Positions 34,360-41,768 of a stretch of DNA of 64,000 nt are shown here, piece after piece; the stretch's first letter is position 1, and each line of letters begins with the position of its first letter. The DNA comes from Coprinus comatus (taxonomy: Eukaryota; Basidiomycota; Agaricomycetes; Agaricales; Agaricaceae). A program made the position numbers and the translations under genes. The notes below the pieces were generated by a model that was not told the DNA's origin, did no database searches, and was given only the letters and a program-made list of their open reading frames with translations. The DNA is taken from positions 558,001 through 622,000 of the forward strand of contig JAWPGT010000009.1 of assembly GCA_034638255.1 (NCBI GenBank), written 5' to 3'.

Positions 34360-36793
34360 TTACAAAGGATATTTTTTTGCCATTTCTACAAGGTATGCCA
34401 TAGGTGCTGCCCTATGCCTATCAGGACTGATTACCGCTGCAGGGAAATCATCAACCGTCGGGCCTTTGGGGAGTTCCAACAAGAACGGATTTTCATGGTT
34501 GTAAGTAGGCCATGCAACTGGTGCGTCCTCGAGATTAGGGTCATGATGGTTTGCAAATCGAGCGACGTATGGTAATAATGGGAAGTGACTGGGTGTTTCA
34601 AATCTAGCATCAGAGCCATGACCCTAACGAACACGAGTTGTCAGTTACCGCTTCTCTTTTATTTGATGGTATCTACTCACAGAGCCGAAGATAGCTGTCT
34701 GTTTTCGTTGTTTGGATACTTTTAAAAAAGACTTTAGTACGTTGTTCAGCGAGGTTAAAACGAGTTAGAGGACTCACGGTATACCCAAAGATTCTTATTG
34801 CCCGCTTTGGATTGCTGGATGGCAAAGAATCTACGGGGTGCTTGGAATACCGTATCTCCGATGAACGCCGCTCTCCTCTTTAATTGAGTATCAACAAATG
34901 TACTTTGACCCATATCAAATGGTGAGCCCGCAGGGTCTGAGTCAATGTAATGCTCATTTAACAACTCATCCACCTCTTCGTCTGTAGCAGCAGGCACCCA
35001 AACTCCCTTGACCCAGTTCCTGAATGTCGTGGAATTCCTGCATAAGACGTAGTGATTAATAAGATGATTATTGGTGCTGGTTTGGTTGTACTGACGATTG
35101 TTGGTTCAAAAGAGGATAAGCGAAGAGTGTTCCCTCGTCGTCAACATTGCCTGGATAATTGTATCAGTACCGTCCCCCAATGAGAACATCTCAAAAAATC
35201 TACCAAGTACTAAGGGAACATTTGCGATCTGATTATTTTCGACAAGGTCAAATGGCCTTCCGGACAAGAAATCGTCATCGACTCGGGGAGACCACACGAG
35301 AGCCAAAGACTAAGCCATATTAGTACTTAGACGTGGAGAACTGATACTAGTTCATACCGTCCTTGCAAAGAAGCTGTTGGTATTATCAACGGCTGCTGTA
35401 ACCTCGGCCAACGGGGCGGTGCGAATACACGTGAGCTTCTCTGCTGCAGTGCCAGTACAGTTTAACGCATTGACAAGAGTATCAAAGCCGGCCTTAGAAT
35501 GTTGAATTGAGTACACCCTTGAAAAGGAACAAGGGGTTTTGTTTTGGCTTACTTGTCCATTCTCCATTCCTGAAACTGGTAATGGTGGTCCTGACTGAGA
35601 GAAGACGGCATGGAATAAGCCAGCCGCATTTCCATTGTTCGTCAACATTTGCAGCACTGTAGACATGCCACCAGAAGATTGTCCCCACCTGAGATTAACG
35701 AAATTCAGTTACACAATGCGAACTTTCGGAAAGACTACCACCTACAGGGTCACTTTTCCTGGATCTCCACCAAATCCAGAGATATGGTCGTGAACCCAAT
35801 TAAGTGCTGCTCGCTCTGATCATAGGCAAATATCAGCCTCTAATTTTTCGAATTAACAATAAAACTCACGATCTCGTAAACCAATATTCCCAACGCCACC
35901 CTCTTTCGCTTCAATACCCCCGAGGAAGCCATACGCTTTAGAGAATATTAACACCATGAATAAATGTGAATGAAGACAACAGCATACCTGAAACACTAGA
36001 AAATTACCGTCAGTCAGCCCATCATTTTATATAAAGCTAGGCAACAAATAAATAAAAACCGACCGATAATTGAACGAGACAAAAATAACGGGTTCGTTCG
36101 TCTGAATTGATTGATCCACCACCGATCTACCCATTTCATCCCAACTGTCGGAGCTCTTAGCAACATTATTAGGACGGCAATTTTTGGTAAGTACCTTTCA
36201 CTGTCACCAATCAAGAAGCCACCTAATCGAAACAAATGAATGATAAAATTGACATTCAAAGAGTATCCTATGGTATCCACAAACCTCCAAAAATCCACTA
36301 AATACCAATTATATCAGAATTGTTTGAGCGAGAGATATAATATAACTTACAAATAATACTGGTAGCTTAGCATTTTCTGGTGTGTTTGCAGGTCTAATGA
36401 TATTAATGGAGAGGCCTATAAAATCGGAAAGAATCAGTCAATAGTTCGTCTTCTCGATTGTTGTAACCCACATTCCTCTGCCTGAGAGGTGGGTGTTGGA
36501 ATTTTCCCAGCCATTAAAAGCTGAAACCAAAGTTCTGCCGTTTTAAGAACTTTATGTTGTATACAGCCTGGACCATAGCTAGTAGCCTCGATTACGCCCG
36601 AGTAATTCTGCTTGGGTTGGGGTATATTGAAACGAGGAGCATCAGCAAAAGGTATGCCAAGGAAGGACTCTGTTAAGCCATTTGCATTGCTGAGACCTTG
36701 AACGGAAGCATTTCCTAGAGGTGCAGTAGGGCCAGGGTTTAAAGCGAGGAAATACTGAAAAGCACGAGAGATGAGGGCAGAAGGTATGAACAT
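34360..36793 (-). CDS. Type-B carboxylesterase / lipase
   Basis: A heavily split gene of about a dozen exons. Key pieces on the minus strand are the start MFIPSALISRAF (ATG at 36793; an upstream in-frame ATG at 36856 also exists), ESFLGIPFADAPRF, the C-L-S-I-N disulfide region (exon ending near 36350), GGGFLIGD, PVIFVSFNYRVS, GGIEAKEGGVGNIGLRD, ALNWVHDHISGFGGDPGKV, the nucleophile GQSSGG (about 35671-35687), DDEGTLFAY with the acid residue, and GHGSDARFE with the catalytic His (about 34600). This is the alpha/beta-hydrolase family that includes fungal cholinesterase-like lipases. All joins are in phase. The nucleophile elbow is GQSSG rather than the common GESAG. No strong signal peptide is visible, which is unusual for this usually secreted family. 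Confidence 0.88.
35988..35995 (-). other. 8-nt microexon of the carboxylesterase gene
   Basis: The bases between acceptor (TAG at 35996-35998) and donor (GT at 35987-35986) encode part of the Arg-Val-Ser-Ala junction joining FNYR to AYGFLGG. Without it the conserved block shifts out of frame. Confidence 0.6.
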
Positions 36794-36856
36794 TCTGTGT
36801 GTTGGAATGGTATAACTCGACGCACTTTTTATAGCTTTGGAGCTGAGATTATACAT

Positions 36857-37497
36857 TGTTCGAGGTGTTTAGATGAGGATTAGGCTGACAGCTAGAATGA
36901 TCTCGGAACAATGTGTTAACCGAGTATCGGTTCTCTCCAGACATTTGAGATGAAGACCAGGGACGCCAATAGAGATTGTGAGAGGAATGTTGTAATCACC
37001 AAGAATCCCGAGATTGAAACACATAACTGGAGAGTAATTGTTGTTCTCAACAAGTCCTGATCACCAAGTCGTTCTCCAATTACTATGGGTAGACTTGAAC
37101 ACTGTTAAGAGCCTTCACCCTCGGAGTATATTAGCGGAAAAAGCCTTTTGTATGTCGCACTTGCAAATATTTTAGGGATGCGAGTTGCAAGACTGAGTCT
37201 GACAGGCTTCTCGAACGCCCCTTGGCATCCCTATTTTATGCATAACCCCACTCACCATATATGATTATTTTGTGCCAAACACTCCATATGATAACGATCA
37301 TCAGGCAGCCTTCGAAGAATCCGCAATAGTCACATTTTTCGCGCGCGGAGCTGGTGCTAGTCCACGTCTGGTACATATCTTATACTATCTATTGATAGCA
37401 TCAACACATATACTTAGAGCAGAAGATGAATTAATGTGCACATACTTAAAGAGAGTTACAGTGACAGCATTATCGTGGCGGTAACGTTAGCCTGACG
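36857..37497. other. Intergenic, no gene seen
   Basis: About 640 bases lie between the carboxylesterase start and the stop of the RNA-repair gene. The frame at 37272-37484 (+) carries no recognised product. Confidence 0.35.
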
Positions 37498-40104
37498 CTA
37501 AAGGCTAATAATTCCACCTCCTACCCCACGAGAAGTCGAAGCAACACCATTAACGTGAAGACTTCCCCGTGCCCAATGTTCATTCCCCGCAATGAAATCA
37601 CCTCTGACTACTTTACCCCTCTCCTCGACCACTCCATCTCGCTCTACCTTAACATAAATACCTCAATTTTCCATCATAGAATTTTGACTTGGACTCAATC
37701 AGTTCCAGTAATCTCTTTTTCTCCGGCATCTCATTCTTATATTCACATATCATAGGTACCAAAATTATCTTCGTTTCCTCTAACATTCCTTCGAATGTTC
37801 GACGATCAACAAATTGCGCGTGCTCCGATCATATAAGTCAAAAGCGATGAAGAGATCAGGAAGGTGGGTATATGCAATTGAATGTGTTGCATACACCATT
37901 CGCCATAAAGGATGTATCTTTCGGCAAAATAAGGATCCCGATCAAGGACACGATACAGACATTCTCGATGTTCTTCTATCCATTTTCCTAACTTCTTGAA
38001 CTGCTCGTGCGTATTTGAATTAACATAATGTGATCGGTTTTGAACCAGGATACGAGAACGATCCACAGAGAGCGAGAACCCCATATTAGCACCATCTATT
38101 TTCTCGGTGACAACCACCCGACCAACTATATTGCGACCGAGAGAGTAATCCGAGGAAACGATATCATCGGGCGTAGCAGCGCCAATATCAATCAGATGAG
38201 GAGTGCGAGGAAATTTGGAGACAAATTCGCTGAGCGGAGCAAAGTGTTGGATAGCCTCCAATGCAGCATTGAAAGACTTGATCCGTACAACAGCAGAAAA
38301 TCCTTCAGATAATCGAGGCCTAACAAATTGTTCATGCATTTGCGTGATTGCGTTACGAACACGACTTCCGGGTGGTAGAGTGGGATGACCAGTTCGCATC
38401 TGAGCCCTCGAAATACAAAGGTCCCTCTCATAATCAAACCAGATACATATTGGCGAAACAGCCCAATTGGATGCTAATTGAAACCATTCCTTCCTCTCTA
38501 TGTCGGACATATTACATCGATCCAGAATAACGCAATTGGGTCCAGGGTTCTTGGATATCGCAGATTCGCAGGCTGAGCGGTTCCCAACGTCGTCTTGGGA
38601 AATACGATAAAAATTCTGAGTGTGTCGAGCAAGAAGCGCATTGGAAACCACGATTTTCCAGAACCAGGAAGGCCGACAAGAATGTAGAAATTGGAATAAA
38701 TGAGTATCCCTTCCACTTCCATAGAACAAGGCGGAGGTTCAGAAGGTATTACTGAGAAATATGGATTGTCGTTTCCAGATTGTACTACACCATTTGGAGA
38801 CAAATTCCTCCTGCTGTATAGTTTCTATGCTTCCAGGTCGAAGTGATCGTAACGCTTTGATAGCTTCGGTAGCGGGAAATTCCGGTTGTGTTCGATATGG
38901 ACTGGCCTTTTTAAAACCGTACGCGGCCAGATAGCACGCTATTACAGTTCCAGCTCTTCCCTTTCCACCACCACAATGAACTAGGAATGGGAGTTTTTTC
39001 TCGTCTTCTACCAGCCTCATTACAACGTCCATTTGTTCGATAGATGGTGGGTAAAAATTAGGGATAGGAAGGAAAGTATTTGAGATACGTTTGTTTCTGA
39101 ACCAAGATTCAGGGAGGGGAGTTTCTTCGGTTAGTGTTAAGACGTTTCGTATCCCGATATAGGGTGACGCTAGAGCATCGATATCGTCTTCATTTCGGGG
39201 AGTTGACATTACAGCCAAATGATATGGGATTACCCAACGAAAGAACCTCGGTAGCTTGTAGAATTCATCGTTCCGTCCCGGTATGAAAAGTGACTCTCGA
39301 GGCTCTAGAGCGAGAGAGGGTGTAATCTCCAGATCACTGAGCGCTGCTCGAGATCTTTAGACCAAGGGTAAGGAGATACGGAGATTCTACTTTTTCGTGT
39401 TCCAGAAAGACGGGTCCCCATTCAGTATGATGAGAGTATTCAATAAGTTTCTTGATACAATATTTTCGTAATTTATCATCATCTGCGCGGTCATAAGCCT
39501 GTGCATAAGCAAGCATCGCGTCCTTGTAAGCACCGATAAAAAAAGAGGCATCAGCAAAACGCGTGAAGCCTTTATGCGAAGTCGAGGAGAGATTAATGAG
39601 TTTTGCGGCCGCGTCTCTGGCCTCTTCGTAATGTAGGAAAATATAGGATGTGAAAGACAAGTGATCCAAGTATTCTGGCGTAACAGAAAGTGGGTGTTGA
39701 TCAGGCAATAGCGACCTGATGCTCTTGTTCATGGTATGATTGTCGCAACGTGTTAAGGTGATATGAAATTCTTTAGGTTGAAGACCAAATCTTTTGCGAA
39801 ATTGCTGGCCTGCAGCCCATATAACGACCACAAAAAACACCCCATCCTTCCCACCACCAACCCCAGCGCTATAAACATGTCGAGCATCAATACTGTCGGA
39901 TTCCTGCTGTAACTTCTCGAGTAGTGGCGGCGTGAGTTGGCGAACTTCATCTTTAGTGATGAGAGTTATGTGGTATGCCATGCCTGGTTCTCTTCGTATG
40001 TTCTGTACCTCCGAGCACCCTTCAATAGTAGCACGAGTTATCCCATCGACGCCATCGCCTACAAGTGCCCAGAATCCGCGAATTTTCTTGATAGACATAG
40101 TCAT
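37498..40104 (-). CDS. Multidomain RNA-repair enzyme: 2H phosphoesterase - phosphatase - kinase - RNA ligase
   Basis: Exons 40104-39363, 39304-38753 and 38709-37498, about 836 residues. Domain 1 has two H-x-T motifs, YHITL (about 39961-39972) and FHITLTR (about 39752-39764), the mark of 2H phosphoesterases that open 2',3'-cyclic phosphates; a helical TPR-like segment follows. Domain 2 is a dual-specificity-type phosphatase with VHCGGGKGRAGT (C-x5-R, about 38950-38978). Domain 3 is a P-loop kinase with GLPGSGKS (38651-38674), RISQDD, VILDRCN and a lid RTGHPTL. Domain 4 is an RNA ligase with motif I EKIDGAN (38085-38105), QNRSHYV, YGEW, AFDLYD, EGIYVKVE and KVVR. The last exon needs single added bases at about five places (38645-38647, 37896-37897, 37811-37813 and twice in 37661-37670); with them all motifs and phases fit. 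Domain order and ligase type differ from fungal Trl1. Confidence 0.82.
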
Positions 40105-40343: not shown

Positions 40344-41768
40344 ATGTTGACCTTGCTTTCAACCGGTTCTAACGCCCAGGGACAGTTAGGTCATGGAACC
40401 ATTGAAGATTCTAATGTCTTCATTCCATGCTCATTCGCAAATTGTCCCTCTGGGACCCTACCTAAATCCACATCATCCATCCTCAAGGTCGTTACCGGAT
40501 CCAATCACACACTTATTCTTTTAGAAATCCAACACAAAACAAACAACTCTACTACTACTATAACAACAGAAGTATGGGGTTCTGGAGATGGAAGTAAAGG
40601 TCAACTAGGACCTGACTTCCTTCAACATCAAATGTATCAAAATCAATCCAATTCGACCATATTCCAAAAACTATCATTGGAAATTACTCTCGAAAAGCTT
40701 GGATTGGGCTTAGAGTTTGGATATACAATATCTGATATTGGAACTACTTGGGAAACATCTTATGTCGTTCTTCACCATCCTACAAAACACGACGCCATTC
40801 TTTCTTTTGGCTCTGACGATTTTGGTGATCTCGGTGTTGGAAAACTACCAAACAAAAACAAAAATCTGGGTCTACAAGTTGTTGATTATTCAAGTATCAC
40901 TATAGACGGAAAGTTGTTACGAGATGCTAGCATAGCTACTGTCGAAAAGCTACGAACTGGACAAAGACATATCATCGTATCTTTAAGCGCTTCTTGGAAA
41001 AATGACGATGAACCGTCCCAAATCCTGATTGGATGGGGTGCTTGTAGACATGGTCAACTTGATAACCCAGCTTCGAACCCATCTCCACCTTCAATCCAAC
41101 CAATCGTCAAACCCACTCCAAATAAAACTAAACCGAAATCGAAAACAAACCAAGCAAAGACTAGATCACAAACAGAACCTACCTTCCATTCTCTACCTAT
41201 CCTACTCATATACACCTCAAATCCCGAGGACATGATCATCGAATACTCATTAGGAATACAACACTCAGTCTTTCTTCATAAATCAGGGAGAATTTCCTAC
41301 CGAGGTTCAAACCGTAAACAACAACTCGAAGGGCTAAACAGCCTTCAACTTCAACCCATCCGGGACGTCAAATGTACCTGGAATGGAACCTACATTATCA
41401 CTGGAAACGAACCTACAAATATCCTATCAACAGGAAGTAACACTCATGGACAACTAGGTCGTTCCGAACTCGATCCAACTACCCCTGTTATGTCCATAAC
41501 AAAATCAAAAATTAAATTCATGACATGTGGTAGTGAACATATCCTGGTCGTTATAACCAATGAAAGCGGTGAAGAAGATGTTTGGGGTTGGGGTTGGAAT
41601 GAGCATGGAAATCTTGGAATTGGGAACACGCGAGATTCCCCTTCCGCAGTGAGAATCATGTCTAGAAAAGATCTGCCGAGGAATCACATTGGATCTCATG
41701 ACCTTATCTATGGTGTATGGGGTGGAACTGGTACCAGTTGGATCTTACTTGGATCATCAGAAACCTAG
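40344..41768 (+). CDS. ATS1: RCC1-repeat protein, ATS1/Kti13-like
   Basis: One uninterrupted frame of 474 residues from ATG at 40344, unusual in this intron-rich region. RCC1-type blades are visible as LSTGSNAQGQLGHG, VWGSGDGSKGQLG, LSFGSDDFGDLGVG, GWGACRHGQL, YRGSNRKQQLEG, STGSNTHGQLGRS and VWGWGWNEHGNLGIG, ending in GVWGGTGTSWILL. The last two elements resemble the C-terminus of yeast Ats1/Kti13 closely. Kti13 works with Kti11/Dph3 in diphthamide synthesis and in Elongator-dependent wobble-uridine modification of tRNA. A long Lys/Pro/Gln-rich insertion (about 41050-41180) interrupts one blade. Other RCC1 relatives are possible, but the short seven-blade form without extra domains fits ATS1 best. 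Confidence 0.78.
   Translation: MLTLLSTGSNAQGQLGHGTIEDSNVFIPCSFANCPSGTLPKSTSSILKVVTGSNHTLILLEIQHKTNNSTTTITTEVWGSGDGSKGQLGPDFLQHQMYQNQSNSTIFQKLSLEITLEKLGLGLEFGYTISDIGTTWETSYVVLHHPTKHDAILSFGSDDFGDLGVGKLPNKNKNLGLQVVDYSSITIDGKLLRDASIATVEKLRTGQRHIIVSLSASWKNDDEPSQILIGWGACRHGQLDNPASNPSPPSIQPIVKPTPNKTKPKSKTNQAKTRSQTEPTFHSLPILLIYTSNPEDMIIEYSLGIQHSVFLHKSGRISYRGSNRKQQLEGLNSLQLQPIRDVKCTWNGTYIITGNEPTNILSTGSNTHGQLGRSELDPTTPVMSITKSKIKFMTCGSEHILVVITNESGEEDVWGWGWNEHGNLGIGNTRDSPSAVRIMSRKDLPRNHIGSHDLIYGVWGGTGTSWILLGSSET

Follow-up and report, generated by a model that had tools for sequence, protein, structure and literature searches.

A Coprinus comatus locus with the domain set of the Swiss Army Knife RNA-repair family, interrupted by local frame changes

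Results

Gene layout and domain assignments

We analyzed a 64,000-nucleotide stretch of the Coprinus comatus genome (the window; contig JAWPGT010000009.1, positions 558,001 to 622,000) and focused on a minus-strand gene region at positions 37498 to 40104. Its domain matches place the locus, as a fungal representative, in the Swiss Army Knife (SAK) RNA-repair family, whose domain set is already known; this copy is locally broken, and no single open reading frame spans the gene as deposited. Swiss Army Knife is the wording of the Pfam descriptions of PF22547 (2H-SAK) and PF22784 (PTP-SAK), and the name reportedly goes back to Burroughs and Aravind in 2016. The features, in window coordinates, are as follows.

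37498..40104, minus strand: whole SAK-type gene from the ATG at 40104 to the stop at 37500-37498, 868 codons long, intronless and with at least six frame changes
39736..40104, minus strand: 2H-SAK phosphoesterase domain (PF22547, 1.6e-20; Pfam stretch 39736-39996)
39972-39964 and 39765-39757, minus strand: H-x-T motifs of the 2H domain, both intact in the window copy
39409..39690, minus strand: TPR-like helical module between the 2H and phosphatase domains
39350..39364, minus strand: frame change from the 2H/TPR piece to the phosphatase piece
38799..39251, minus strand: PTP-SAK Cys phosphatase domain (PF22784, 3.4e-58), aligning with the DUSP23 structures 2img and 4erc
38973-38975, 38955-38957, 39057-39059 and 38823-38825, minus strand: phosphatase Cys, Arg, acid-loop Asn and SIET Glu, respectively
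38747..38757 (approximate), minus strand: frame change from the phosphatase piece to the kinase P-loop piece
38290..38710 (borders approximate), minus strand: polynucleotide-kinase-like domain (AAA_33; PDB 9drz and 9d8a; PNKP)
38648-38671, minus strand: P-loop GLPGSGKS
38647..38669 (approximate), minus strand: frame change just after the P-loop
37534..38120, minus strand: RNA ligase nucleotidyltransferase domain (PF09414, 1.8e-16, second piece 0.0034; also by Foldseek)
38100-38102, minus strand: Lys of ligase motif I
37662..37896, minus strand: three frame changes inside the ligase domain (near 37896, at 37816-37819 and at 37662-37664)
40344..41768, plus strand: intact RCC1-like gene, divergent from the SAK gene

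A first-pass annotation had claimed two H-x-T motifs, a C-x5-R phosphatase loop, a P-loop and a KxDG ligase motif in this order, and all were found in that order along the minus strand, the phosphatase loop as HCGGGKGR and the ligase motif as EKIDG. It had also called for a check of each domain with hidden Markov models (HMMs). In Pfam searches with the window pieces, 2H-SAK (74.1 bits, cut-off 27), PTP-SAK (196.5 bits, cut-off 27) and RNA_ligase exceeded their cut-offs, whereas the kinase match fell just short (AAA_33, 1e-5, 26.3 bits, cut-off 27). In the relative P0001 (856 aa), all four domains were over the Pfam cut-off (2H at residues 14-118, PTP at 282-432, kinase from 470, ligase at 659-831), so that kinase and RNA ligase share one chain; in the window they are ordered pieces but not in one frame. 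The agreement of motifs and Pfam domains in the window far exceeds chance. The proposed Rnl2-like nature of the ligase also held, with motifs I, III, IV and V present in addition to the PF09414 match; its best structural matches were Naegleria RNA ligase and T. brucei REL1. The best PDB sequence matches of the kinase were the Lichtheimia and Rhizopus kinases 9drz and 9d8a, and the closest structures to the phosphatase, among the best 50 rows, were VHZ and archaeal PTPs.

Distribution and conserved residues

Searching for homologues with a single window frame as query (E up to 1e-3; the 7995 candidates sharing the most words were scored) yielded 562 proteins, and the best 120 were tabulated. 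All four domains (2H-SAK, PTP-SAK, AAA_33 and RNA_ligase) occurred together in 109 of these 120. The other 11 had no 2H-SAK match; nine of them were shorter than 800 aa, and one (P0111) also had no AAA_33 match. The first-pass annotation had called for a search for the same architecture in other Agaricomycetes. It was found there, and the architecture is therefore not new: Pfam already models the SAK domains, and the architecture is common among the Agaricomycetes listed. The nearest named organisms listed were Macrolepiota and Leucocoprinus. Many named relatives are labeled "ATP dependent DNA ligase" or a phosphatase in the source records, though their domains point to RNA repair. Scans of viral and prokaryote contigs with two peptide patterns each confirmed no relative with this architecture, and PADLOC defence-system models gave no match. 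PHROGs and NCBIfam gave single-domain matches alone, to RNA ligases, polynucleotide kinases and others.

Residues were counted in 124 relatives, that is, the best 120 plus four of the 8 hits obtained when residues 1-300 of a Kwoniella protein served as query; 114 of the 124 were at least 800 aa long. The Cys and Arg of the phosphatase C-x5-R loop were kept in all 124 and in the window, as was the SIET Glu in all 124, which by our own count aligns with E134 of VHZ. The acid-loop residue was Asn in 122 relatives and in the window, Asp in one and a gap in one. Kinase Lys-Asp-Arg residues were kept in 121 relatives, and the Lys-Glu-Lys-Lys of ligase motifs I, III, IV and V in 118.

The 2H domain behaved differently. 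Both H-x-T/S motifs were intact in 90 of the 124 relatives, one was altered in 9 and both in 13, with gaps in the remaining 12 that may be gene-model cuts; some of the altered cases could likewise be annotation errors. On a FastTree tree of residues 255-836, which excludes the 2H part, at least 10 changes were needed between altered and intact 2H and at least six between both motifs altered and both intact, gapped relatives being left out of these counts. Several Mycena, Collybiopsis and Kwoniella proteins were among those altered; Mycena sanguinolenta P0085, for example, has changes in both motifs, whereas the Coprinopsis cinerea protein P0069 is an intact relative. With altered motifs in 22 of 124 relatives, and the phosphatase Cys and Arg altered in none, the 2H step cannot be required everywhere. 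It is probably dispensable in several lineages, although 90 relatives still keep the motifs, and phosphatase, kinase and ligase look like a constant core to which 2H is an optional part. In the same tree, the SAK proteins of Kwoniella (Tremellomycetes; P0096, P0100, P0103, P0105 and P0241-P0243) lie among the agarics beside Collybiopsis and Rhodocollybia with moderate support (82-89), a placement that is a possible transfer or an artefact of sampling or long branches.

Frame changes in the window copy

When P0001, P0003 and P0004 were mapped by tblastn and the stop-free pieces searched by blastp, the pieces covered 842 of the 856 positions of P0001 in the successive frames -3, -1, -2, -1, -3, -2 and -3. 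Junction arithmetic against P0001 gave six junctions with offsets between -14 and 0 nt. Introns do not fit, because adjoining pieces either overlap, by 23 nt at most, or are separated by no more than 13 nt: the homologue segments meet without spare sequence, whereas intron-like junctions in CCT and HSP70 genes of this genome measure 47-198 nt. Introns were therefore rejected, and with them the single spliced protein of 836 residues proposed in the first-pass annotation; the pieces change frame within a span of 868 codons that leaves no intron room.

As a coarse control that rests on HMM pieces, the CCT and HSP70 matches of the same genome (24.9 kb) had 43 intron-like junctions, no frameshift-like junction and one unresolved junction. 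The last lies in a CCT chaperonin gene (G000:C9:954574-955413, plus strand) and can be read neither as an intron nor as a clean frame. The RCC1-like gene, whose start codon is 239 bp from that of the SAK gene, is one open reading frame matching relatives over 99% of its own length. Since neither the control nor this neighbour shows clear breaks of this kind, the damage looks local, and a genome of generally poor sequence quality was not supported as its cause.

Apart from its frames, the window copy resembles its relatives. It retains every one of the 144 columns that at least 118 of 120 relatives conserve, which indicates either a recent break of the gene or a local fault in the sequence. At the level of 114 of 120, 214 of the 219 columns covered are kept, compared with 0 to 13 changes in the 120 relatives themselves. 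Two explanations were weighed. We give even odds to recent gene loss in this lineage, with real frame changes and a young pseudogene at the locus. At least six frame changes lie in 2.6 kb compared with none clear in the 24.9 kb of housekeeping matches, and the neighbour is intact despite having more homopolymer runs of at least four bases per kb (17.5 versus 13.8), albeit with a shorter longest run (5 versus 7); such counts over the window are not decisive. No second copy was found in the genome, where P0001 matches the SAK locus and, weakly, contig C54. Agaricus bisporus provides the best match of the RCC1-like neighbour, and no Agaricus name occurs among the best 120 of the 562 SAK matches, many of which are unnamed, a hint of wider loss; SAK may be lost or unannotated in Agaricus. 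Recent loss fits less well with the near-complete coverage and the 144 retained sites, and with a mean identity to eight outgroups (59.4%) about the same as that of three intact relatives (59.8, 59.5 and 59.4%). For seven frame changes, neutral decay would leave no other damage with P of at most 0.013 at four or more substitutions per indel, but with P of 0.11 at two and 0.34 at one. Such signs of purifying selection on the protein, with no other damage seen, favour a gene that is intact in the organism and frame changes that are local sequence or assembly errors, a reading we put slightly below an even chance; the housekeeping and adjacent genes, free of frame changes at such density, speak against it. 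The absence of an intact single frame counts against the working of this copy and not against its membership in the SAK family.

The C54 match (G000:C54:78273-78704, minus strand) is a weak PTP-SAK match (2.6e-9) and perhaps a separate DUSP23-like phosphatase.

The RCC1-like neighbour

We compared the best 120 SAK matches with the best 120 RCC1-like matches. The two apparently share a contig in 15 of the 120 listed SAK matches, compared with 0 or 1 in a shifted control, and have consecutive locus tags in five named genomes. The pairing is not universal. Among named species present in both lists, 12 apparently have them on the same contig and six on different contigs (Galerina marginata, Pholiota conissans, Gymnopilus junonius, Paramarasmius palmivorus, Crassisporium funariophilum and Leucoagaricus sp. 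SymC.cos); Hermanssonia is unclear, and in Amanita polypyramis the tags on the shared contig are not consecutive.

Some RCC1-like relatives are labeled ATS1 or SERGEF in the source records. The identity of the neighbour as ATS1/KTI13 was not established, as UVR8, HERC1 and RCC1 chains scored at least as high as ATS1 in a profile search. ATS1 is the same protein as Kti13. In yeast, Kti13 participates in tRNA modification by Elongator, a process exploited by zymocin (PMC10468694). A far-reaching and quite improbable reading would make SAK a general mushroom RNA-repair system whose constant part is a Cys phosphatase that heals 3' ends in a new way, relying on a backup Glu rather than the classical Asp. 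SAK would on this reading have shed 2H repeatedly and would form a ribotoxin sensitivity-and-repair module with its recurrent RCC1-like neighbour, which some records label ATS1. 2H would then have been shed because another enzyme (for example, the cyclic phosphodiesterase [CPD] of Trl1) or the phosphatase handles cyclic ends, and the neighbour would tie SAK to tRNA wobble modification, the mark recognised by fungal anticodon-nuclease toxins. The role against anticodon nucleases suggested in the first-pass annotation is speculation.

On the minus strand at 35355-36868, carboxylesterase-family pieces (PF00135 positions 11-73 and 188-269) lie in separate open reading frames.

Discussion

The domains, their order and the conservation of catalytic residues are observations; from these we infer every reaction, the RNA substrate and the biological role of SAK. 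With a probability of about 0.72, the SAK chain is a self-contained RNA healing and sealing enzyme built of a 2H domain, TPR-like helices, a DUSP23/VHZ-type Cys phosphatase, a 5'-OH kinase and a bare ligase of the Rnl2/Naegleria type. The 2H domain, where intact, would open a 2',3'-cyclic phosphate, and the phosphatase would take off the resulting terminal phosphate, perhaps with the SIET Glu standing in for the absent Asp. The kinase would phosphorylate the 5'-OH, and the ligase would adenylylate itself and then join the 3'-OH to the 5'-phosphate. Backup residues in related enzymes are described in PMC12848742 (E134 in VHZ, E132 in Tk-PTP and ShufPTP, E40 in SsoPTP), as are the kinetics of a ShufPTP D63N variant whose E132 is believed to step in. 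Because it has Asn in the acid loop and keeps the backup Glu, the SAK phosphatase seems to be a naturally occurring counterpart of that variant.

Several observations weigh against a complete healing and sealing enzyme. No single frame translates the whole of the window copy, and its ligase domain stops soon after motif V with nothing further C-terminal, thus having no added C-terminal domain. Structure prediction, also called for in the first-pass annotation, brought out the TPR-like module that annotation had overlooked; the full-length model had a predicted template modelling score (pTM) of 0.52 and therefore says little about domain placement. The model of the 2H open reading frame had a mean predicted local distance difference test score (pLDDT) of 88.8. 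TPR rows filled the lists of the structure searches, which did not confirm the 2H fold, so the 2H assignment rests on the Pfam match and the motifs. No paper on fungal SAK proteins was found by title or abstract, in a search that mostly left out subscription papers; in PMC9503650, "Swiss-army-knife-like" refers to a phage HAD phosphatase, and in PMC11090510 such wording occurs only in a reference on Cdc48. If repeated loss of 2H is tolerated, opening 2',3'-cyclic phosphates may not be what SAK chiefly does. The phosphatase, having Asn in its acid loop, might be of low activity, target a different end (for example, the 5' end) or serve only for binding.

The last point leads to an unlikely alternative, in which the phosphatase, instead of healing 3' ends, trims 5' ends (for example, triphosphates) and prepares them for ligation or decay, with 2H as a relic. 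The canonical general acid is gone in 122 of 124 relatives, as might be expected for a better leaving group, and 2H is altered repeatedly while the phosphatase stays. However, the presence of a 5'-OH kinase on this chain implies substrates with a 5'-OH, the SIET Glu never varies, the closest structures are VHZ and archaeal PTPs, and no structure named RNA 5'-triphosphatase appeared among the best 50 rows. The acid-loop Asn and the repeated 2H alteration are clues to which RNA ends SAK handles. It is most improbable that SAK is a rearranged form of the tRNA-splicing ligase of this organism. Like Trl1, SAK combines ligase, kinase and 2H domains, but the Trl1 ligase, kinase and CPD family matches of the genome lie together on contig C45 and a Tpt1 match on C43, and the SAK ligase (PF09414) and kinase (AAA_33) come from other families. 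The Trl1 families themselves (PF09511, PF08303 and PF08302) gave no match in the window pieces (E up to 1) or in P0001 (E up to 0.01). The first-pass proposal of RNA end healing and sealing apart from Trl1 thus gains from the domain matches and the separate Trl1 and Tpt1 matches, and is weakened for the 2H step, which is not essential everywhere.

Comparison with known RNA-repair systems

The window gene is closest to the SAK proteins modelled in Pfam: both SAK models match well over the cut-off, and no architectural difference was seen apart from the broken frame of the window copy. DUSP23/VHZ is the best structural match of the SAK phosphatase and among the best by sequence. The SIET Glu is common to both, but DUSP23/VHZ has Asp in the acid loop and stands alone, whereas the SAK phosphatase has Asn and is embedded in a multi-domain chain. 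Naegleria RNA ligase has an extra N-terminal domain. The Naegleria gruberi enzyme and T. brucei REL1 are single-activity ligases, in contrast to multi-domain SAK.

T4 Pnkp/Rnl and bacterial Pnkp-Rnl-Hen1 combine a kinase, a 3'-end phosphatase and an Rnl-type ligase, the phosphatase being of the HAD or metallophosphoesterase type rather than the Cys type. Trl1 and SAK both carry a ligase, a 5'-OH kinase and a 2H phosphodiesterase on one chain, with the ligase and kinase from different families and the domains in a different order, and the 2'-phosphate of the Trl1 route is removed by Tpt1. To our knowledge, Trl1 has no phosphatase. The T4 and bacterial activities reside in separate proteins or a complex, in contrast to the single SAK chain (PMC4411300). 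Because the 2H route of yeast and plants leaves a 2'-phosphate (PMC3400036), a chain that brings a phosphatase of its own together with an Rnl2-like ligase would work apart from that route, as the first-pass annotation argued. Should these activities be shown, mushrooms would possess, in addition to tRNA splicing, a second pathway of RNA repair that is self-contained.
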